Below are positions 4,951 through 62,573 of a DNA stretch of 64,000 nt, one piece after another; the first letter of the stretch is position 1; every line of letters starts with the position of its first letter. The stretch spans positions 1 through 64,000 of the IMG/VR virus record IMGVR_UViG_3300023184_005208, one strand, 5' to 3'. The notes below the pieces were generated by a model. The model was not told the DNA's origin and ran no database searches. It was given only the letters and a program-made list of their open reading frames with translations. The DNA is from a virus. Made by a program: the position numbers and the translations under genes.

Positions 4951-6162
4951 ATGTCTAAAATTAATGTACTTGTAGTCCCATCTGATAAAACAGGAGTGGG
5001 CAAATTTAGGTCTGTTGACCCTCACGTTTTTTTACAAAATTTATATCCTGACGATTTTCATATTGACATCATATATGATGTCCCAATGAATAACATGGAG
5101 TTTTGGAAAAAATACCAAATTATTGCTTTCCACAGAAGTCTTAATCCTGATTTTGAAGCATCTCACGCATTAATTCAAAAACTTAATGAGATGGGTATTG
5201 TCACCATTGATGATATCGATGACTACTGGATGCCAACAAAAGAACATCCAATCCATGATGTCATTAGATTTAATAAAATCAATGAAAAGATTACCGCAAA
5301 CCTTAAGGTTGCAAAATATGTAACAACAACTACAACAATCTTTGCGGATGAGATTATGAAATTGAATAAGAATGTTGTTATTTTCCCTAATGCAATTAAC
5401 CCTAATGAATCTCAATTTAAAGAACCAACTCCTGAATCTGATAGATTAAGAATTGGTTGGTTAGGTGGTTCTTCCCACTTGCACGATTTACAATTATTAG
5501 ACCAATCGTTTAGTAAGTTAACACAATATAAAGATAAATTACAATATGTCTTATGTGGATTTGATACGAGAGGTAGTGTAACTGAAATTAACCAACAAAC
5601 AGGTGAACACAAGAAAAGAGATATTCTTCCTCATGAGACTGTTTGGGCTCAATATGAAAGAATATTTACACAAAACTATTCTACTGTATCCGAAGATTAT
5701 AAAAAATATTTAAATGTTTTCTCTCCTGAAGGATACCCAAATGAAATGAACGAACCATATTTGAGGGTGTGGACAAGACCTGTCCAATCTTATGCTAAGA
5801 ATTATTCAAAATTTGATGTATCTTTGGCACCGATTAAAAATCATATCTTTAACAGAATGAAATCTCAATTAAAAGTGATTGAAGCGGGATTCTATAAGAA
5901 AGCGATTATTGCATCTAATTTAGGTCCCTACACAATTGATTTGAAACATTGTTTGGACCACGGTAATTTTGTTGATGGTAATGCATTATTAGTCGATGAA
6001 AACAGAAACCATTCTGATTGGGCTAAGTTTATTGAGAAGTTAGTTAAGAATCCAAACATGGCAAAAGATATGGGAGAAAGATTATACGAAACTGTTAAAG
6101 ACAAGTATGATTTAAATGTTGTAACAAAAGCAAGAGCAGAATTTTATAAATCAATCGTATGA
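4951..6162 (+). CDS. GT-B (GT4-like) glycosyltransferase
   Basis: 403 residues. The N-terminal half has the KFRSVDPHVFLQNL opening and a DDIDDYW motif typical of GT-B enzymes that process phage or cell-surface glycans. VVIFPNAINP marks the inter-domain region, and the C-terminal half has RIGWLGGSSH and the late IEAGFYKKAIIAS segment that corresponds to the nucleotide-sugar site of GT4 enzymes. It opens the long glycan cluster (to 19557). The upstream gap of 54 nt holds a weak TATATTTT element at 4924-4931 but no clear -33 partner. Sugar donor and acceptor unknown. Confidence 0.8.
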   Translation: MSKINVLVVPSDKTGVGKFRSVDPHVFLQNLYPDDFHIDIIYDVPMNNMEFWKKYQIIAFHRSLNPDFEASHALIQKLNEMGIVTIDDIDDYWMPTKEHPIHDVIRFNKINEKITANLKVAKYVTTTTTIFADEIMKLNKNVVIFPNAINPNESQFKEPTPESDRLRIGWLGGSSHLHDLQLLDQSFSKLTQYKDKLQYVLCGFDTRGSVTEINQQTGEHKKRDILPHETVWAQYERIFTQNYSTVSEDYKKYLNVFSPEGYPNEMNEPYLRVWTRPVQSYAKNYSKFDVSLAPIKNHIFNRMKSQLKVIEAGFYKKAIIASNLGPYTIDLKHCLDHGNFVDGNALLVDENRNHSDWAKFIEKLVKNPNMAKDMGERLYETVKDKYDLNVVTKARAEFYKSIV

Positions 6163-13939: not shown

Positions 13940-14575
13940 ATGAAATCATACTCACAGTGCGGACAAGACTTATTTGTCTATTATCTGAACGAAGGAAAAT
14001 CAGGTAAATTTTTAGACCTTGGTTGTTCTTTACCAATGAAAATTAACAACACATATCTTTTAGAACTTAATGGATGGGATGGAATCTCATTAGACATCCA
14101 AGACTTTAATACACAATGGGAACAAAGAAAATGCAAATTTATTCAAGCCGATTGTCTTAATCAAAACTACAACGAATTACTTAAAGATTATTACGATGAC
14201 AAAGTAATTGATTATCTAACATTAGATATGGAAGGATGTGGTGACAGATATAAATTACTACAAAAAATTATTGAGAGTGATTACACATTCAAAATAATCA
14301 CAATAGAACACGACGCATACCTTGGAGATGAGTTTGTTAATAAAGAACAAATACCACAACGTGAATTGTTAAAATCAAAAGGATATCAATTAATTTGTTC
14401 TGACGTATCTCACGCAAAGAATCCTGAATTATTCTTTGAAGATTGGTGGGTTAATCCTCAATATTTTGAAGAGTCTGACCTTGTGTCATGGACCAGCGAT
14501 AAAACCAGCTGTGATAAAATTTTTGAAAAATTAAATATTGAATATGAAATTGCAAACGAATCAATCGACAGGTAA
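13940..14575 (+). CDS. FkbM-like methyltransferase
   Basis: 211 residues from the ATG at 13940; a longer reading into the previous gene is disfavoured because this ATG opens the family's YSQCGQDLFV start. KFLDLGCSLPMKINNTY is the SAM site, and DYLTLDMEGCGDRYKLL matches the 'L-S-x-D-x-E-G' strand of FkbM enzymes. A second methyltransferase of this type in the operon (the first is at 9987) suggests two methylated positions in the glycan. Confidence 0.75.
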   Translation: MKSYSQCGQDLFVYYLNEGKSGKFLDLGCSLPMKINNTYLLELNGWDGISLDIQDFNTQWEQRKCKFIQADCLNQNYNELLKDYYDDKVIDYLTLDMEGCGDRYKLLQKIIESDYTFKIITIEHDAYLGDEFVNKEQIPQRELLKSKGYQLICSDVSHAKNPELFFEDWWVNPQYFEESDLVSWTSDKTSCDKIFEKLNIEYEIANESIDR

Positions 14576-15665
14576 GAAAATAGTTGTGTTAGGGGGAGGT
14601 GGATTCATCGGAGGTCACCTCGCAAAAAGATTAAAAGAAGAGGGTAACCACGTTAGAATTTGTGATATTAAAAGACATGAACACTTCTATGAAGATGAGA
14701 TATGTCATGAATTTATTTTAGGGGATTTAACAGACCCTAAGGTCGTAGATTTGGTTATTGAGGAAGGGGTGGATGAAGTGTATCAATTAGCTGCTGACAT
14801 GGGTGGTGCTCTTTATATCTTCACTGGTGAGAACGATGCAAATCTTATGCACAACTCAGCAACTATTAATTTAAACGTATCAAGAGAATGTGTTAAGAAA
14901 AAAGTTAAGAAAGTATTCTACTCTTCTTCAGCTTGTATGTATCCTGAACACAATCAACTTGACCCATTAAATCCAAACTGTGAAGAAAGTTCTGCATACC
15001 CTGCAAACCCTGATTCAGAATACGGATGGGAAAAGTTATTCTCTGAAAGAGTATTTTTGGCATACCATAGAAACTATAAGTTAAATGTAAGAATTGCAAG
15101 ATTTCATAACATCTTTGGTCCACAAGGTACTTGGAAAGGTGGTAGAGAGAAATCACCAGCAGCAATGTGTAGAAAGGTTGTTGAAGCCAAAGACGGAGAT
15201 ATCATCGAAGTATGGGGTAATGGTGAACAAACTCGTTCATTCCTTTATGTTGAAGAATGCGTTGAAGCGGTTCTTAGATTAATGGAATCAGATTTTACCG
15301 GACCTGTTAACATTGGAAGTGAAGAAATGGTTACAATTAATCAACTTGCCGAAATGGCAATTAGTATATCAGGAAAAAACCTATCAATCGAAAATATTGA
15401 TGGTGAAGAGTTCGTAGAAAAATATGGATTTAAATGTCCTCTTGGTGTTAAAGGAAGAAATTCTGACAATAAACTTTATCGTGAAAAAGTTGGGTGGGAG
15501 GTTAGTCAACCTCTTTTAACAGGACTTACAAAAACTTTTTTATGGATAAAATCTCAAGTAGATACTTTAGAATTAGAAACTCCTTGGATTTACGAAAGTC
15601 CTGATGGTGGTAAAACAGTGTTTAAGAGAGAGCCTATGTCCACAAAAAGGATAAAAATTAAATAA
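14544..15665 (+). CDS. GDP-mannose 3,5-epimerase-like protein
   Basis: 373 residues from ATG 14544 (a TTG two codons earlier is less likely). VVLGGGGFIGGHLAKRL is the NAD site. SSSACMYPE holds the catalytic Cys, EYGWEKLFSE the Y-x-x-x-K, and GTWKGGREKSPAAMCRK the segment with the catalytic Lys that is diagnostic for the plant and bacterial GDP-mannose 3,5-epimerases. VKGRNSDNKLYREKVGW at the end also matches. The enzyme converts GDP-D-mannose to GDP-L-galactose or GDP-L-gulose, a possible donor for the fucosyltransferase-like enzymes upstream. It overlaps the preceding methyltransferase gene by 32 nt. Confidence 0.88.
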   Translation: MKLQTNQSTGKKIVVLGGGGFIGGHLAKRLKEEGNHVRICDIKRHEHFYEDEICHEFILGDLTDPKVVDLVIEEGVDEVYQLAADMGGALYIFTGENDANLMHNSATINLNVSRECVKKKVKKVFYSSSACMYPEHNQLDPLNPNCEESSAYPANPDSEYGWEKLFSERVFLAYHRNYKLNVRIARFHNIFGPQGTWKGGREKSPAAMCRKVVEAKDGDIIEVWGNGEQTRSFLYVEECVEAVLRLMESDFTGPVNIGSEEMVTINQLAEMAISISGKNLSIENIDGEEFVEKYGFKCPLGVKGRNSDNKLYREKVGWEVSQPLLTGLTKTFLWIKSQVDTLELETPWIYESPDGGKTVFKREPMSTKRIKIK

Positions 15666-49989: not shown

Positions 49990-52002
49990 ATGAACGACTT
50001 AATGGACGACGACGACAAAATGATGAGTAAGAAACAAAAACAATCCGACAGTTCTACACCAGTTTTAGATAACTTTAGTAGAGACCTAAACAAACTTGCC
50101 GAGGCTGGTAAATTAGACCCAGTTATTGGTAGAGACCGAGAAATCATAAGAATCGCTCAGATTCTATCTCGTAGAAAAAAGAATAACCCTATTATCATAG
50201 GTGAACCTGGTTGTGGTAAGACCGCAATCGTAGAAGGTTTAGCAATGAAAATTGTAAGTGGAGAATGTCCAAAAAATCTTTTGGATAAAAGAATCGTAAA
50301 CCTTGATTTAACTTCAGTAGTTGCTGGTACAAAATACCGTGGTCAATTTGAAGAAAGAATGAAAGTTATTATTGAAGAACTTCATGCAAATCCTAATATC
50401 ATCATATTCATCGATGAAATCCATACCCTTGTTGGTTCAGGTAACTCTTCAGGTTCTATGGATGGTTCAAACATTTTCAAACCAGCATTATCTCGTGGTG
50501 AACTTCAATGTATTGGAGCAACTACTCTTGATGAGTTCCGTAAGAATATTGAGAAGGACGGAGCATTAGAGCGTAGATTCCAAAAGGTAATTGTTGACCC
50601 GTCTTCGGTACAAGAGACAATCGAAATTCTAAAGAATGTTCGTGATAAGTATGAATCCTATCACAAAGTAACATACTCAGATGAGGTTATTGAGACTTGT
50701 GTTAAGTTGGCGGACAGATATATCACCGACCGTGAGTTCCCTGATAAAGCGTTTGATATTATGGATGAAGTTGGAGCTCGTATGCAAACAGAAGTTAAAA
50801 TCCCTGAGGCTATTGAAGTATTGAAGAAAGCTGCGGCTGAAATCAAACAACAAAAGTTGGATGTGGTTAAAAAACAAAACTACGAGCAAGCGGCTGAATT
50901 ACGTGACAAGGAAAAGAAAGTGTTAACCAAACTTGAAAATGAAAAATCCAAGTTTGAAGAACAACAATCAAAAGACAAGAAAATAATTTCTCTTGAAAAC
51001 GTCTATGATGTTGTTTCTAACATGACTAAAATTCCTGTAAACAAAATGAGCCTTGATGATGCAAAGGCATTAATCAACTTGGACAAAGAGTTAATTGGTA
51101 AGGTTATCGGTCAAGACGCCGCAGTTATCAAGATTGCAAAATCAATCAAGAGAAACCGTTTAGGTATCAAAGACCCAAATCGTCCAATTGGTTCATTCGT
51201 GTTCTTAGGTTCAACAGGTGTCGGTAAGACTCACTTGGCCAAACAATTGGCTAAGGAGATGTTCGGTTCCGAAGATTCACTTATCCGTGTGGATATGTCT
51301 GAATACCAAGAGAAACACAGCATTTCCAAATTGGTAGGAGCCCCTCCAGGTTATGTAGGATATGAAGAAGGTGGACAATTAACCGAGAAAGTTAAGAACA
51401 AACCATACTCAGTTATCTTATTTGATGAGGTGGAAAAAGCGCACAAAGATGTGTTCACAATCTTACTTCAAATCTTAGATGATGGTTACGCAACCGATAG
51501 TTTAGGTAGAAAGATTAACTTCAAGAATACCTTAATTATCTTAACCTCAAACTTGGGTGTTAAGAAATTACAAGACTTTGGTACAGGTATTGGATTCTCA
51601 AACAACACCTACGCTAACGAAGAAGCTAAGAAACAAGTATTGATGAAGGAGATGAAAAATTTCTTCTCTCCTGAGTTCCTAAATCGTATTGATGACACTA
51701 TTGTCTTCAACTCGTTAACTCCTGAAGACATCAAAAAAATCACCGAAATCGAATTGAAGAAATTGGTGAATCGTTTAAATGATATTAAATACAAAATCAC
51801 TTATGACGATACTTTAGTTGATTATTTAGCTAAAGTAGGATTTGATGAGATGTACGGAGCAAGACCGCTGAAGAGAGCAATCCAAGACAAAGTTGAGGAC
51901 TTGTTATCTGAAGAAGTCTTAACAGGTAAAATGATTGAAGGTAAATCTTACTTCATTAAAGTAGACAATGAAGAGATTAAGGTTACCAAGAAAGGAAAGT
52001 AA
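49990..52002 (+). CDS. clpC: ClpC-type AAA+ unfoldase lacking the N-terminal repeat domain
   Basis: 670 residues, against about 840 for bacterial ClpC. D1: GEPGCGKTAIVEGLA (Walker A), NIIIFIDEIHTLVG (Walker B), GATTLDEFRKNIEKDGALER. Then a UVR-like middle (YEQAAELRDKEKKVLTKLEN). D2: FLGSTGVGKTHLAKQLA, VILFDEVEKAHKDVFTILLQ, and the end SPEFLNRIDDTIVF. The D2 loop retains I-G-F (GTGIGFSNN), the tripeptide that docks ClpP, so it could use host ClpP. The adaptor-binding N-domain is absent, replaced by a short acidic leader. With Hsp20 and tmRNA nearby it suggests phage control of proteolysis. Confidence 0.92.
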   Translation: MNDLMDDDDKMMSKKQKQSDSSTPVLDNFSRDLNKLAEAGKLDPVIGRDREIIRIAQILSRRKKNNPIIIGEPGCGKTAIVEGLAMKIVSGECPKNLLDKRIVNLDLTSVVAGTKYRGQFEERMKVIIEELHANPNIIIFIDEIHTLVGSGNSSGSMDGSNIFKPALSRGELQCIGATTLDEFRKNIEKDGALERRFQKVIVDPSSVQETIEILKNVRDKYESYHKVTYSDEVIETCVKLADRYITDREFPDKAFDIMDEVGARMQTEVKIPEAIEVLKKAAAEIKQQKLDVVKKQNYEQAAELRDKEKKVLTKLENEKSKFEEQQSKDKKIISLENVYDVVSNMTKIPVNKMSLDDAKALINLDKELIGKVIGQDAAVIKIAKSIKRNRLGIKDPNRPIGSFVFLGSTGVGKTHLAKQLAKEMFGSEDSLIRVDMSEYQEKHSISKLVGAPPGYVGYEEGGQLTEKVKNKPYSVILFDEVEKAHKDVFTILLQILDDGYATDSLGRKINFKNTLIILTSNLGVKKLQDFGTGIGFSNNTYANEEAKKQVLMKEMKNFFSPEFLNRIDDTIVFNSLTPEDIKKITEIELKKLVNRLNDIKYKITYDDTLVDYLAKVGFDEMYGARPLKRAIQDKVEDLLSEEVLTGKMIEGKSYFIKVDNEEIKVTKKGK

Positions 52003-56201: not shown

Positions 56202-56600
56202 GGGGGTGCCCTGGATTTGATTGCGATAATTAGGGTACGCAGGCACGTAGTCAGAATTCATCTATGACTTAAATCTATGGTGAAAGATTTCAAATGGCAA
56301 AACTTTTGCTAAAATGGCTACTTTAGGTTTAACTAGAGAAGCTGTTGTTGTTGGTGCTTAATTAGTACAGAACAGCGTTCGGGTCGGTTAGGACATATAA
56401 CCTAGGAACAGAAGTCCAATATAGGGGTCACAGGTCAGAGCTCCTTTAAAATAACTCTGAGACCAAGTTGTTTACAGGTAAGTTTCTCACATATATCAAA
56501 CCTGATATTTCGTAACATTGAGAACCGATGTTGTACTAAACGTGTAGTCTGTTTATGTTAATATTGTAAGACAAGGGTTCGATTCCCTTCACCTCCACCA
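56202..56600 (+). ncRNA. ssrA: Transfer-messenger RNA (tmRNA)
   Basis: 399 nt. The 5' end GGGGGTG (56202-56208) pairs with CACCTCC (56590-56596) to make the 7-bp acceptor stem, followed by ACCA with CCA encoded. GGGTTCGATTCCC is the T arm. The tRNA-like ends enclose a mRNA-like part: the only suitable frame runs GGC AAA ACT TTT GCT ... GTT GGT GCT TAA (about 56296-56361), giving a tag GKTFAKMATLGLTREAVVVG plus A, ending V-G-A. Bacterial tags usually end in A-L-A-A. The exact resume codon is uncertain. It rescues stalled ribosomes and marks their products for proteolysis. Confidence 0.93.
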
Positions 56601-56996: not shown

Positions 56997-57028
56997 TTTG
57001 ATTTGTTAATGTTTTATTAATATCTTTA
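56997..57028 (+). promoter_or_regulatory. Host-type promoter upstream of the TonB-receptor leader
   Basis: TTTG (56997-57000), 20 nt, TATCTTTA (57021-57028), one mismatch to the consensus at the last base. It drives the leader transcript described below. Confidence 0.65.
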
Positions 57029-57049: not shown

Positions 57050-57150
57050 AGACAGGTGAAAAAATCTTTTATGAACTATTACCAAACAAAAACAACATAT
57101 CAAAATTTTAATAATCTAGTCCCGTAGGCCCCTGTCTTCGGGATTTTTTA
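57050..57150 (+). promoter_or_regulatory. Structured leader / attenuator-like element before the TonB receptor
   Basis: AGTCCCG (57118-57124) pairs with CGGGATT (57139-57145), followed by a T-run (57144-57149): a terminator-like hairpin. Its loop contains CCTGTCT (57131-57137), complementary to AGACAGG (57050-57056) upstream, allowing a 7-bp pseudoknot. AGACAGG also contains the AGG of a possible Shine-Dalgarno for an 18-codon ORF (57071-57127). The arrangement resembles a translational or ligand-controlled attenuator; the ligand is unknown. Confidence 0.5.
57071..57127 (+). CDS. Possible 18-residue leader peptide
   Basis: ATG 57071 to TAG 57125-57127 encodes MNYYQTKTTYQNFNNLVP. It starts 14 nt after AGGTG and its last codons overlap the 5' arm of the hairpin, so translation would affect its folding. 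Enriched in Tyr, Gln, Asn and Thr. May be a regulatory leader; could also be fortuitous. Confidence 0.3.
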   Translation: MNYYQTKTTYQNFNNLVP

Positions 57151-57175
57151 TTTATAAACAACTAAACAAAAAAAC

Positions 57176-59725
57176 ATGAAAAAAACGGTAATTTTAACCT
57201 TAGGGTTAATGTTGACAGCGTTTTCATCCTTCGCACAAATTACAGGAAGGGTCGTTGACGCTACAACAAAAGAGGTATTGGCAGGTGCAACTGTTGGTAC
57301 TGAAAAATCAAATGTTACAACTGGATTAGATGGAACATTTGAATTAAAAACTGTGAAAGCAGGTGAAAAACTTAATGTATCTTTTATCGGATATAAGAAC
57401 ATTGTAATCACCGCAAAAGACGGAATTGTTATTGAATTATCTTCAACATCAATTGGTCTTAAGGAAGTATCAGTTATCGCTTCTTATGGTATTGACAGAA
57501 AAACACCAGCTGCTATCTCATCAGTAAAAGGTAGATACACTGTTGAAAATTTAGGTTCTCAAGAATTACCTGAATTGTTAAAAATCACACCTTCGGCTTT
57601 TATTACGAAAGGTGGTGGTGGTGTTGGTGATTCTCGTATCAATATTAGAGGATTTGACCAAAAGAACGTTGCAATTTTAATTAACGGTATTCCAGTAAAC
57701 GATATGGAATCAGGTTGGGTTTATTTCTCAAACTGGGCAGGTATCGGTGATGCGTTAAAACAAATGCAAGTTCAAAGAGGTTTAGGAGCATCAAAATTAG
57801 CAATTCAATCAGTTGGTGGTACAATGAATATCATTACAAAAACAACTGATGCTGAAAAAGGAGCTTCATTCCAACAATCTTTAACAGATTTTGGTTTAAG
57901 TAAATCAGTATTGTCTTATTCAACAGGTAACACTAAGAAAGGAGCATTTTCTTTTGTAGGTAGTACCACACAAGGTAATGGTTATGTTGAAGGTACTTAC
58001 ACAAAGGCTTATTCTTATTTCTTATCTTATGCTAAAGATTTAGGTTTAAATCATAAATTACAAATCATTGCATTAGGTGCACCTCAAGAACACGGACAAC
58101 GTAGTTCTCGTTTAACACCCGCAGAATTTGACAAATATGGTGTAAAATACAATAAAGATTTGTATTTGTTAAACGGTGAGTTGAAAAACATCAATATCAA
58201 CTATTATCACAAACCAATTTTCCAAATTAATGATTATTGGACAATCAATAAAACAACAACATTAACAACATCTTTTTACGGTTCAATTGGACACGGTGGT
58301 GGTAGTGGTGCTATCGGTTCTTACGATGGTACTAAAGTTCTTAGAGACGCTCAAGGTCATTTAACAATGGACCCACAAGTTGCTCTAAACGCAGCTTCTA
58401 CAACTGGTTCTAAGTATGGTATTAGAAACTCAATCAACAATCATAGTTGGTATGGTGTATTATCTACATTAAACAAAGATTTATCTAAAACATTAAACCT
58501 AACGTTAGGTGTTGATGGTAGAACTTATGTAGGAACTCACTTTAGAGAAATGAGAAATTTAATTGGTGGTTCTTATTACAAAGATATATTCAATACTGCT
58601 GCAACAGTTGATGCAAATGCTAGTGATTTTATTAATATCAATAAAGTAACTCCAACTAACAATCGTATCGCTTACGATAACGACGGTTTAGTTAAGTACG
58701 CAGGTACTTTTGGACAATTAGAATACTCTAAAGATAAATTATCAGCGTTCGTACAAGGTGCTATTTCTAACACATCTTACCAAAGAGCTGATAGATACTA
58801 CGCAAATGCAGTAGAACATTTATCTGAAAAAGTTAATATCACAGGATACAATTACAAAGGTGGTTTCAACTATAACTTAACTGACAATCACAACGTATTT
58901 GTTAATGCTGGTCAATATAGTAGAGCACCTTATTTCAGTTTCATCTTCAACGGAGCTTCTCCTTCATCCGCAACCGCAATCAATAGTGGTAACGCGGTGA
59001 ATGATAACATCAAAAATGAACAAGCAACCGCAGTTGAGGTTGGTTATGGTTTCAGAAGTAAGTCGTTTAGAATTAAAGCTAACGCATATTACACTGATTT
59101 CAAAAATCGTTCTTTAACTTCTCCACTATTAACAAATGCTGATGGTACTCAATACAGAGCATTAATTGTTGGACAAGGTGCAACACACAAAGGTGTTGAA
59201 ATGGAAGCAGAATTAAAAGTATCTAAGAAATTAGATGTTAACGCATTTGCATCATTTGGTGATTGGAAATGGAAAGGAAACGCTTCTGCAACAATCCATG
59301 ACGATATCAAAAATACAGATGTTAAAACATCAATCTTTTCTGACGGTTTATTCGTAGGTGACCAACCTCAAACACAAGTAGGTGGTTACGCTAGATACCA
59401 ATTAACTAAAAGAATAGATTTATCTGCAATTTATACTTTCAATGACAAGTATTACGCATACTATGACCCCACTTCAAGAACAAACGCAGCTGTAACAGCT
59501 CAACCTTATAAGTTGGATTCTTATGGTATCACTGATGCAAGAATTGGATATAAATGTAAAGTAGGTAAATTCCCAGTACACGTTCAATATCAAGTATACA
59601 ACGTATTTGATACTAACTATTGGGCTGAAGCTAACGACGCTGGTGGTACATCAGTTGGTGTGTTAGGAACAGGATACAAAGGTTGGGGTAGAAACTCTAA
59701 CGTAAGTGTCAAAATTAACTTCTAA
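57176..59725 (+). CDS. TonB-dependent outer-membrane receptor
   Basis: 849 residues. A signal peptide (1-21, ending FSSFAQ) is followed by a CarboxypepD-like domain (ITGRVVDATTKEVLAGATVG, 22-98), a plug (GVGDSRINIRGFDQKNVAIL, then INGIPVNDMESGWVYF, QVQRGLGASKLAIQSVGGT, about 105-225) and a beta barrel ending in Phe (SVKINF). This is a normal full-length Bacteroidota iron-type transporter. To find one intact, with its own promoter and structured leader, in a phage region is unusual. No lipoprotein partner (SusD) follows. Likely roles are superinfection exclusion, receptor masking or nutrient uptake. The A-rich region before the ATG lacks an SD. Confidence 0.93.
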   Translation: MKKTVILTLGLMLTAFSSFAQITGRVVDATTKEVLAGATVGTEKSNVTTGLDGTFELKTVKAGEKLNVSFIGYKNIVITAKDGIVIELSSTSIGLKEVSVIASYGIDRKTPAAISSVKGRYTVENLGSQELPELLKITPSAFITKGGGGVGDSRINIRGFDQKNVAILINGIPVNDMESGWVYFSNWAGIGDALKQMQVQRGLGASKLAIQSVGGTMNIITKTTDAEKGASFQQSLTDFGLSKSVLSYSTGNTKKGAFSFVGSTTQGNGYVEGTYTKAYSYFLSYAKDLGLNHKLQIIALGAPQEHGQRSSRLTPAEFDKYGVKYNKDLYLLNGELKNININYYHKPIFQINDYWTINKTTTLTTSFYGSIGHGGGSGAIGSYDGTKVLRDAQGHLTMDPQVALNAASTTGSKYGIRNSINNHSWYGVLSTLNKDLSKTLNLTLGVDGRTYVGTHFREMRNLIGGSYYKDIFNTAATVDANASDFININKVTPTNNRIAYDNDGLVKYAGTFGQLEYSKDKLSAFVQGAISNTSYQRADRYYANAVEHLSEKVNITGYNYKGGFNYNLTDNHNVFVNAGQYSRAPYFSFIFNGASPSSATAINSGNAVNDNIKNEQATAVEVGYGFRSKSFRIKANAYYTDFKNRSLTSPLLTNADGTQYRALIVGQGATHKGVEMEAELKVSKKLDVNAFASFGDWKWKGNASATIHDDIKNTDVKTSIFSDGLFVGDQPQTQVGGYARYQLTKRIDLSAIYTFNDKYYAYYDPTSRTNAAVTAQPYKLDSYGITDARIGYKCKVGKFPVHVQYQVYNVFDTNYWAEANDAGGTSVGVLGTGYKGWGRNSNVSVKINF

Positions 59726-59746: not shown

Positions 59747-59775
59747 AAAACCCTCATCTTCAGATGGGGGTTTTT
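59747..59775 (+). terminator. Intrinsic terminator after the TonB receptor
   Basis: AAAACCC (59747-59753) and CATC (59755-59758) pair with GATG (59763-59766) and GGGTTTT (59768-59774) around TTCA, with a T-run after. Confidence 0.85.
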
Positions 59776-59792
59776 TTATCTCAAATTTTTAC

Positions 59793-59800
59793 TATATTTG
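59793..59800 (+). promoter_or_regulatory. Host-type -7 element TATATTTG
   Basis: A perfect TAnnTTTG 5 nt before ATG 59806, directly after the TonB terminator. No TTTG at the -33 position, so the promoter is less certain than the others. Confidence 0.55.
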
Positions 59801-59805
59801 AGACA

Positions 59806-60156
59806 ATGAACAGAATTTATATTGGGTTATTCATTTTTGTAGCCTACACCGTATCACAAGTTTTTACGTTTTACCAATTACAGGGACACCTGTGGAATAA
59901 ATGGATTAAAGATAACCCACTTTTAATGACCATCCTTGGACTACCCATCGGTTATGTGGTTATATTAGCTAGCAGACAAATGGTTGAACTGTGGGGTGGG
60001 CAAACGTGGCCAAATAGGATTATAGGGTTTTGTCTCGGAGTCATTGTTTTTTGTTTAATGTCTTGGTTCATGTTAAAAGAACCTGTTACTGTTAAAACAT
60101 CAGTTTGTCTTTTATTAAGTTTTGTTATTCTTGGAATCCAATTGTTTTGGAAATAA
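59806..60156 (+). CDS. Small membrane protein with four predicted TM segments
   Basis: 116 residues from ATG 59806 (an upstream reading would begin in the terminator). Hydrophobic segments near 5-22 (YIGLFIFVAYTVSQVFTF), 38-54 (LMTILGLPIGYVVILAS), 70-87 (IIGFCLGVIVFCLMSWFM) and 97-115 (CLLLSFVILGIQLF). It resembles small DMT/SMR-like proteins but no specific motif is seen. Inner-membrane location expected; possibly an exclusion protein together with the neighbouring receptor. Confidence 0.62.
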   Translation: MNRIYIGLFIFVAYTVSQVFTFYQLQGHLWNKWIKDNPLLMTILGLPIGYVVILASRQMVELWGGQTWPNRIIGFCLGVIVFCLMSWFMLKEPVTVKTSVCLLLSFVILGIQLFWK

Positions 60157-60160
60157 AAGG

Positions 60161-60167
60161 TATTTAT
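60161..60167 (+). promoter_or_regulatory. Late-type promoter motif TATTTAT
   Basis: Overlaps ATG 60166 and ends 4 nt before ATG 60172, supporting 60172 as start of the TKWC gene. Confidence 0.5.
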
Positions 60168-60171
60168 GAAT

Positions 60172-61662
60172 ATGAAATTCATGGGTATCTTATTAAAGGA
60201 GGGTCGTAAAGAAGATTTAAAGAAAAAATATTCAACAAAGTTTAATGAAGAAGACTTAGACTTTATTTTGAATATTTCCGATTTAAAAGATTTTAATCAC
60301 AAGTACACTGATTTTGTATTAAAAAATACAGATGGAGATGGTGAATTAGATACTGATGAATTAGAACACCTTGTAGGTCTTATAAAAGATTTTGATAAAT
60401 ATTCAAGCCAATTTCCTAAGAAGGATATCAATCAATATGTATCATTAAATGAACTTGAAAAAGTAATTCTTTACATTAGGGGAAAAAACAAAGAAAAGGA
60501 ATTAGAAGGTCAAGCAAAAAAGATTTACGAAAAAGGTGACTTTGTAGTTATTCAACCAAAAACTGAAGCCGCTTCTTGTAAATACGGTTCAAATACAAAG
60601 TGGTGTGTTACATCAAAAGGGTCAGGTCACTTTGGTAAATACACCGCAGGTCGTCAAAGATTATATTTCATAATTAACAAAGCCAAGTCCACAAACAAAA
60701 ATTACTCAAAAGTTGCAATTCATTTTGATGATGGTGGAGAACCAAGATATTGGGATTCTCAAGATTCGCCTATGAGTCAAAGAGAAGTTGATGTGTTTGA
60801 ATACGCATTTTCCGATATGATTGAGTCAATTAAAAATGACTATAAAAAATATGCGGGGTCAATGACTGATAAGTTTTTAACTCAGGCGTTTGATTCTATA
60901 GGTGAAAATTCCGCAGAAAGTAGAAATTATTTGAATTCAACTTATAATTTAGCAACATATATTACAGGATTTCAAAATAACCATGGTTTGGGATTTGGTC
61001 ATTCGGAAGCTCTTTTATCAATATCATTAAATTCATATGTTGGAGACAATAAATTAATTGACGCATATAGACTTTTTATTACGTACAAATCTAAAGATGA
61101 AAAAACATTTACCGCAAGTATAGGATTTATGGGTGATGATGATGTAAAAGGAGATGACATTGAGGACCTTGGTCTTGAAAATTGGGGAATAGATGTGACA
61201 TATAATATTGGTAGAACTCCATTAGAAACCGCTGAAGGTGTTAGAAGACACATTGCACAAAGAGTGTTGGACCATATCGTAACTAACCCTCAACTTGTTC
61301 AAAAGATTGCAGGAACATCCAAAGTTTGGAGACCGAAATCAGGATATACCTTCGGGAAAAACAAAGGGTTAATTAAAAAATTAGTTGATTATTTAGATAC
61401 GGGTGCAATAGGTACTAAGTTAGACTTTATGGAATCCATAGGAAAATTTAAAACAAAAATTGTTAACGGTAAAAAACTATATGCTCACCAAGGTAGTGAT
61501 AATTACTTACCATCAGTTAATTTTAGAGGCCAATATTCAACGTTCTTTGCCGCAGCGAAATTAGCTGGAATTCTAGGATATAGGAAAGTCGGTAAAGAAT
61601 TTTTGTTAGTTAAAGGTCCTAATTTTGATGCTTTTAAATCCGGTGAACTTAAAGCTCTTTAG
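60172..61662 (+). CDS. TKWC-domain protein B with L-K-E targeting peptide
   Basis: 496 residues from ATG 60172; ATG 60166 lies inside the promoter motif. MKFMGILLKEGRKEDLKKKY has L-K-E followed by G at residue 10; the following GRKEDLKKKY parallels GKKEDIAKRL of the 55362 gene. The core FVVIQPKTEAASCKYGSNTK, then W-C-V-T-S-K and FGKYTAGRQRLYFIINKAKS is the same domain as in protein A. An acidic helical segment lies between. The C-terminal half (LKLDFMESIGKFKTKIV) is unlike protein A. Paralogous, late and probably packaged (inference). Confidence 0.62.
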   Translation: MKFMGILLKEGRKEDLKKKYSTKFNEEDLDFILNISDLKDFNHKYTDFVLKNTDGDGELDTDELEHLVGLIKDFDKYSSQFPKKDINQYVSLNELEKVILYIRGKNKEKELEGQAKKIYEKGDFVVIQPKTEAASCKYGSNTKWCVTSKGSGHFGKYTAGRQRLYFIINKAKSTNKNYSKVAIHFDDGGEPRYWDSQDSPMSQREVDVFEYAFSDMIESIKNDYKKYAGSMTDKFLTQAFDSIGENSAESRNYLNSTYNLATYITGFQNNHGLGFGHSEALLSISLNSYVGDNKLIDAYRLFITYKSKDEKTFTASIGFMGDDDVKGDDIEDLGLENWGIDVTYNIGRTPLETAEGVRRHIAQRVLDHIVTNPQLVQKIAGTSKVWRPKSGYTFGKNKGLIKKLVDYLDTGAIGTKLDFMESIGKFKTKIVNGKKLYAHQGSDNYLPSVNFRGQYSTFFAAAKLAGILGYRKVGKEFLLVKGPNFDAFKSGELKAL

Positions 61663-61914: not shown

Positions 61915-61946
61915 ATTGTAATATTCAAATAAATATCATATCTTTG
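61915..61946 (+). promoter_or_regulatory. Host-type promoter for the HAD operon
   Basis: ATTG (61915-61918), 20 nt, TATCTTTG (61939-61946), 6 nt before ATG 61953. Confidence 0.75.
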
Positions 61947-61952
61947 TATTCT

Positions 61953-62573
61953 ATGAAAGTTATATTTTTAGATAATGATGGAGTAATCTGTTTATCAAAT
62001 AATTGGGGGGGTCGTACAAAAAAATGGGCGAAACATCGCTCCGCAAATCCTGAGTCAAGTAATTTACTCAGAGAAGCTCCCGTTGATGTAAGATTTGATG
62101 ATTTTGATAAGAAATCTATTAAAATTTTAAATGAAATCTTAGAAGAAACAGGAGCAGAGATTGTAGTATCTTCTGATTGGAGATTTCATGCAACTTTAGA
62201 AGAATTAGGTGAATATTACGAATCCCAAGGAATCTCAAAAAAACCAATCGGATTTACCAAAAAGTTAGGCCAATTTCAAAGACCTGAAAACTTCCCATGG
62301 TCTCGTCAGTGGGATTTAGAACAGTCAAGGTCCTTAGAGATACTTCAATACCTTAAAGACAATCCAGAGGTCACAGAATGGGTTGCAGTAGATGATTTGA
62401 ATATGGGAATACCACAGACTCACGAGAGTTGGGGTGAAATGGAAATGGATTGGGGTTTGACCAATTTTGTACTCACACCAAAAAGTAGTGAAGGGATTAA
62501 ACAAACAGGAATTAAAGATAAGATTATAAAAATTTTAAACGATGTCAAAGATAACGACAAAGGTGATAGTTAA
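61953..62573 (+). CDS. HAD-domain protein of the Swiss Army Knife RNA-repair type
   Basis: 206 residues from ATG 61953 (an upstream TTG overlaps the promoter). KVIFLDNDGVICLSN carries the D-x-D nucleophile motif, EIVVSSDWRFHA the 'S-S-x-W-R' block characteristic of this HAD group, and TEWVAVDDLNM the final acidic pair. Members of the group occur with RNA ligases and kinases. A phosphatase role in RNA or nucleotide repair is plausible. First gene of a five-gene operon ending at 63729. Confidence 0.78.
   Translation: MKVIFLDNDGVICLSNNWGGRTKKWAKHRSANPESSNLLREAPVDVRFDDFDKKSIKILNEILEETGAEIVVSSDWRFHATLEELGEYYESQGISKKPIGFTKKLGQFQRPENFPWSRQWDLEQSRSLEILQYLKDNPEVTEWVAVDDLNMGIPQTHESWGEMEMDWGLTNFVLTPKSSEGIKQTGIKDKIIKILNDVKDNDKGDS

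Follow-up and report, generated by a model that had tools for sequence, protein, structure and literature searches.

A TonB-dependent receptor in an exchangeable slot of T4-like phages and its probable link to phosphorus acquisition in Bacteroidota

A contig of a T4-like phage carries what is, to judge from its sequence, a functional-looking TonB-dependent receptor (TBDR), here called type A, in a slot that in related phages is empty or holds one of two other kinds of TBDR (types B and C). We consider it probable that this receptor is a host-derived, exchangeable and host-PhoB-responsive transporter for phosphorus acquisition in T4-like phages of Bacteroidota, and the virus would thereby probably help a starving host to acquire phosphorus while making new viruses. 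The wider proposal, in which the B and C types reveal a dedicated slot exchanging distantly related TBDRs of the phosphate-starvation (PHO) regulon, with host PhoB driving them during P starvation and phages controlling outer-membrane phosphorus entry throughout the phylum, is in our judgement evenly balanced. Bacteroidota depend on TBDRs for a large share of their nutrients. Auxiliary genes for phosphorus that host PhoB controls are known from cyanophages, where they act in the periplasm, and the same logic would here be applied at the outer membrane. Since some 170 viral loci hold a type A, B or C gene, the setting of the phosphorus supply of infected heterotrophs by phages becomes directly testable; the repeat described below offers a model for the Bacteroidota PHO box and a handle on the substrates of PHO-regulon TBDRs.

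The receptor and the phage that carries it

The window, a stretch of 64,000 bp analysed as a whole, was taken from a linear IMG/VR virus record of 66,674 bp. The T4-like gp23 (major head protein), portal and TerL are encoded on the same contig as the receptor. Eighty relatives were fetched via the Clp-type protease gene and then compared by synteny; these reach 309–321 kb, so that the window is probably part of the genome of a large T4-like phage. The features around the receptor are listed in Table 1.

Table 1. Features of the receptor slot and its surroundings, in window coordinates.
Feature	Position	Strand	Basis
Clp-type ATP-dependent protease gene	49990..52002	+	Query for fetching relatives of the locus
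tmRNA gene, just left of the receptor slot	56202..56600	+	RF00023, 91 bits
Left flank gene, encoding a 127-aa protein with CxxCxxCC domain PF03692	56610..56993	+	Pfam, synteny
Direct repeat TTGTTAATGTTTTATTAATATC resembling a PHO box, its two TTAA cores spaced by 11 bp, immediately 3' of the upstream gene	57003..57024	+	
Possibly spurious leader ORF of 18 codons	57071..57127	+	Sequence
Terminator-like hairpin (-12.4 kcal/mol) then T-run, ending ~25-30 nt before the ATG	57119..57152	+	
TATTTAT, candidate phage promoter element, between hairpin and ATG	57149..57155	+	Enrichment
Type A TBDR ORF, 849 aa	57176..59725	+	Sequence, Pfam, AlphaFold2
Terminator-like hairpin and T-run 3' of the receptor	59747..59777	+	Sequence
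Right flank gene, encoding a small hydrophobic protein whose start is probably at 59806	59764..60156	+	Synteny
Second right flank gene, kept in relatives	60166..61662	+	Synteny

The preliminary description had recognized a full-length receptor with signal peptide, CarboxypepD-like domain, plug, barrel and terminal Phe, and all of these parts were recovered. The ORF starts with ATG and its product ends in ...KINF, the N-terminal signal peptide being judged from the sequence. Pfam places CarbopepD_reg_2 at residues 22–100, the plug (PF07715) at 108–216 and the TonB_dep_Rec barrel (PF00593, 88 bits) at 327–809, the latter two above cut-off, and a conserved stretch of the LKEVSVIAS...DRKTPAA type, which may contain a TonB box, precedes the plug. 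AlphaFold2 returned a plug-and-barrel model (mean pLDDT 69, pTM 0.68) whose best PDB matches in Foldseek are all TBDRs (Fiu, PqqU/YncD, FhuA and FecA); the matches include FhuA with the T5 protein pb5 and FhuA with the exclusion lipoprotein Llp (8a60). A sequence search of the PDB with the receptor gave no informative relative.

A slot with exchanged receptors

In L127, L134 and L154 the slot is empty, and homologues of the left and right flank genes adjoin with no receptor between them. The spacer in L127 measures about 35 bp, and the terminator found downstream of the receptor directly follows the left flank homologue there. Other relatives have filled the same slot differently. L142 holds type B, an 825-aa TBDR with a PF14905 barrel accompanied by a 401-aa lipoprotein, while L138, L130, L135, L129 and L151 hold type C, an Oar-like TBDR (PF25183) roughly 1,090 aa long; the A, B and C receptors are only distantly related to one another. 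Types B and C are both present in L136, as divergent neighbours. The phage L005, whose major head protein is 87% identical, has a 65% identical type A receptor at a different genome position. The empty or refilled slot in relatives and the receptor placed elsewhere in L005 mark the locus as a cassette site and the receptor as mobile among phages. The phage genes noted earlier on both sides of the receptor are thus borne out as flanks syntenic in many relatives, with the slot empty or holding another TBDR.

At least 15 type A, 80 type B and 76 type C viral loci were counted in IMG/VR. Slot flank genes lie near 32 of the 76 type C and 18 of the 80 type B loci (separate scans), and within the fetched flanks none was found at the remaining type B and C loci. 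A first count of TBDRs, two in 50 relatives, was too low because PF00593 alone had been used, a model that misses the type B and C barrels (these match PF14905 and PF25183). The contigs with both B and C are IMGVR_UViG_3300043446_003193, 3300047476_002143, 3300032093_008073, 3300043395_002348 and 3300005805_000361 (L136, in full IMGVR_UViG_3300005805_000361). The slot region of the relative L147 encodes a PlcP-like calcineurin metallophosphoesterase (L147:15233-16030), a gene type of phosphate starvation; a PHO-like repeat was absent upstream of it.

The leader of the receptor, as read from a 20-mer within it, GGGATTTTTTATTTATAAAC, is phage-specific. This 20-mer is found in 24 other viral contigs, and in 21 of them it has a TBDR directly behind it, standing 37–39 nt before a type C receptor. 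On this distribution, the window has a type A receptor behind a type C leader, as a cassette exchange at the leader would leave, and two of the three slot receptor types thus stand behind a shared leader. The preliminary description had given the receptor its own promoter, leader and terminator. The leader was found to hold the PHO-box-like repeat, a hairpin with T-run and the candidate promoter element TATTTAT, and a terminator-like hairpin does follow the gene. TATTTAT is the most enriched heptamer upstream of the genes of this phage (15 of 67 genes). In the 60 bp preceding genes of both strands its enrichment is 15-fold, and it is a candidate late promoter of the phage group. A terminator-like hairpin with T-run occurs in 33 of 46 type C and 4 of 56 type B phage upstreams, against a background of 21 in 200, and the hairpin sequences differ among the type C upstreams. 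A leader-peptide attenuator was considered and set aside, the short ORF being weakly supported and the hairpin plainly the terminator of the upstream gene in some relatives.

Phosphate-type context in hosts and the PHO-box-like repeat

The homologues of the slot receptors in host genomes stand in several cases beside genes for phosphate metabolism. The host type B receptor keeps its lipoprotein partner and adjoins either a PhoB-like response regulator (62–65% identical to each other) or pstS-pstC-pstB-phoU, and PlcP is also found nearby among these loci. The best type A homologue of the genome search, L278 (51–53% identity), has the polyphosphate kinase gene ppk 69 bp downstream, then glycosyltransferase and PlcP-like genes. 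A second, L279 (43–47%), adjoins a Na/Pi cotransporter-PhoU gene, and L285 adjoins 5'-nucleotidase and endonuclease I. Type C adjoins PlcP and a glycosyltransferase in L290 and L291, and in L280 a type C gene is adjacent to a type A gene. PHO-type neighbours within 6 kb were counted for 8 of 14 type B, 3 of 20 type A and 2 of 19 type C loci and for 1 of 40 random TBDR loci, a count that drops generic matches (ABC proteins, PstB-like at 23–32%, and weak response regulators) and whose queries came from the test loci themselves. In the control locus L310 the PlcP neighbour is genuine. A second set of host type A loci had PHO-type neighbours in 0 of 16, and the wider type A family does not share the setting of its two best homologues. 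The link to a PHO context in hosts is strong for type B and suggestive for types A and C.

In Flavobacterium johnsoniae, the TBDT and lipoprotein Fjoh_0545/Fjoh_0546 lie in the phoBR operon and are induced by phosphate depletion (PMC8115612). Type B shares PF07715, PF13715 and PF14905 with Fjoh_0545, which is paired with lipoprotein FII, and it likewise has a lipoprotein partner and, in hosts, an adjoining PhoB-like gene. The TBDTs Fjoh_1368 and Fjoh_3857 are also induced by low Pi, as is the orphan Fjoh_3841, which is annotated with PF13620 alone (PMC8115612); type C fits such a PF13620-only annotation in its architecture. The F. johnsoniae genes are chromosomal, and the phage types B and C are likened to them by architecture.

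Directly behind the left flank gene stands the PHO-box-like repeat. It has the same spacing as the Pho box of cyanobacteria, for which PMC3037559 cites CTTA-N7-CTTA, and no experimentally defined Bacteroidota PHO box was found for comparison in the literature searched. We scanned the 250 bp upstream of genes for TTAA-N7-TTAA with a period of exactly 11. In hosts the motif precedes 10 of 14 type B, 14 of 36 type A and 10 of 19 type C genes, compared with 1 of 38 control TBDRs (Fisher 6e-7, 8e-5 and 2e-5, respectively), and the other repeat periods are flat in the host TBDR upstreams. All four of the closest host type A homologues have it. Among dereplicated viral upstreams, period 11 is present in 14 of 46 for type C and 13 of 56 for type B (2.6% for phage background genes), and phage type B also has period 22 in 17 of 56, with triple half-sites such as TTTAATTATTT GTTAACATTTG CTTAACCACTT; the remaining periods are flat here too. 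The perfect motif was absent upstream of the other phage type A genes L002-L004 and L006. The motif recurs in five of the six type C leaders related to that of the window, L136 scoring one short; in L138, L130, L135 and L151 the leader repeat is the best match of the whole locus, while the L129 match falls on the 3' side of the likely promoter and could be accidental. Because the phage leaders are related to each other they are not independent samples, unlike the host sets, which are.

A position weight matrix (PWM) built from the host type B sites separates host type A (p=0.0017) and type C (p=2.5e-5) from the controls. It also marks the ppk, Na/Pi, OprP-like and PlcP promoters, compared with 3–5% of other genes, and scores the PlcP promoter in one control locus. 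Among its intergenic matches in the window the repeat ranks first, but over all matches it comes only at about fifth place, the others lying inside ORFs. Predicted Pho boxes in phages are unreliable without binding assays (PMC10976474), and the terminator-like hairpin, standing between the repeat and the receptor gene, counts against control by PhoB. We take the type A gene to be a probable member of the host PHO regulon.

From this evidence we infer PhoB binding, induction, the substrate and a benefit to the phage, as follows. On infection of a phosphate-starved cell, the PhoB of the host would occupy the repeat and activate the phage copy, and phage-timed expression may come in addition from the phage promoter element beside the ATG. 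After export to the outer membrane, the receptor would use the host TonB-ExbBD as its drive and import a phosphorus source that is probably organic, for example breakdown products of nucleic acids or phosphoesters. The P uptake could then continue through host gene shut-down and phage DNA synthesis.

Selection on the receptor, alternative roles and known systems

The phylogeny against host receptors that the preliminary description had proposed was built for type A from 51 sequences by a quick search, with SH-aLRT as support. In it the phage genes fall into two or more distinct groups, and the sister of the window receptor is L017, an 80% identical gene on a bacterial contig. L017 was first taken for a phage sequence, which was ruled out when its neighbours were read as bacterial. 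The separate phage groups and the position of L017 point to repeated exchange between phages and Bacteroidota. A second viral type A clade, L007-L016, is sister to a Sediminicola gene and represents an independent capture; T4-like gp23 was not found on these contigs. Among the window, L002-L005 and L017, dN/dS is 0.10–0.22, indicating purifying selection. In the closest copies the plug diverges least of all domains (0.06–0.10), and the long, presumably extracellular loops (0.21–0.22) compare with 0.18–0.21 for the barrel strands; in L004 the loops reach 0.32 and the strands 0.21. The low dN/dS, the conserved plug and loops no faster than strands suggest that the protein is kept as a transporter, and the closest pairs bear no sign of a fast-changing surface.

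These rates bear on the possibility that the phage copy alters the outer-membrane receptor set of the infected cell, whereby competitor phages that enter through TBDRs would be titrated or excluded, or would have their receptors displaced. TBDRs are common phage receptors, the structures of FhuA with pb5 and with Llp are among the Foldseek matches, a late-type promoter element precedes the gene, and the replacement of one receptor by an unrelated one in the same slot would be in keeping with an arms race. However, the receptor is under purifying selection with its plug the most conserved part, its loops change no faster than its strands in the closest copies, and a PHO-box-like motif with PHO-type host homologues would not be expected. 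We regard this role as unlikely; superinfection block and receptor replacement, both raised in the preliminary description, gained no positive support.

The same description had also proposed feeding of the infected cell with iron or vitamins. Feeding is the use that agrees best with the data, with phosphorus rather than iron or vitamins indicated as the nutrient by the phosphate-gene neighbours in hosts, the PHO-box-like motif in hosts and phages, and the architecture shared with the Pi-starvation-induced TBDTs of F. johnsoniae. Uptake of iron-siderophore, haem, vitamin B12 or sugars, the classic TBDR substrates, seems to us quite unlikely. The receptor is weakly similar to NCBIfam models of haem/transferrin and B12 receptors, far below their cut-offs, but Rfam at its gathering cut-off gave no riboswitch in the receptor leader (the tmRNA was the one match), Pfam recognized no SusD in the ORFs flanking the receptor, so that a SusCD pair is not indicated, and the context and motif in hosts are of phosphate type. 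That the gene is passenger host DNA or an assembly chimera with no phage role is very improbable. In its favour stand the incompleteness of the contig, the small number of type A loci in viruses (15) and the close L017; on the other side, the gene is intact and selected, it follows a phage-specific leader, its flank genes adjoin in empty-site relatives, and the slot holds TBDRs in many contigs. With the syntenic flanks, that leader and the type A copy in L005, neither a chimera nor a fragment confined to one assembly, the two outcomes named earlier as refuting, was found.

As a phosphorus transporter, the receptor has its nearest parallel in the cyanophage pstS and phoA genes under host PhoBR (PMC3037559, PMC10976474). 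Both cases concern T4-like phages with a host-derived phosphorus-acquisition gene, a PHO-type repeat of 11-bp period, and a patchy presence of the gene among relatives. The cyanophage product is the periplasmic PstS or a phosphatase, whereas here it is an outer-membrane TonB-dependent transporter, the hosts are Bacteroidota, the slot takes three receptor types, and the PhoB control is predicted from the motif. TBDRs in phage sequence have been noted before: they are annotated in hot-spring phage genomes with mention of a role in infection (PMC6302217), and UniProt A0A8D9FQQ5 of an uncultured marine phage is a further case, so that presence alone is not new. In the passages of the hot-spring account that were compared, the slot, the regulation and the phosphate link seen here do not appear. 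No phage TBDR with a phosphate link was found in the literature searched, and there the shared slot with three receptor types and its PHO link appears to be new. The Llp of phage T5 is a small lipoprotein acting on FhuA; it and the slot receptor are both phage-encoded outer-membrane components tied to TBDR biology, the latter being a full transporter.

Some further genes were observed on these contigs. The tmRNA, which ARAGORN did not call in the window, is also present in L142 and L138 at the same place, immediately left of the receptor slot. Most other type A contigs gave no match to phrog_138 or phrog_2; the PHROG matches around the other type A genes are replication genes, clamp loader, groEL and glycosyltransferases, so these contigs look viral. 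The window itself encodes a phage glycosyltransferase (phrog_7162) and a nucleotide-sugar epimerase (phrog_540) at 4951-6162 and 14538-15665, respectively, and, at 61944-62573, a HAD_SAK_2 domain protein (PF18143, 76 bits) of a family linked to RNA repair.
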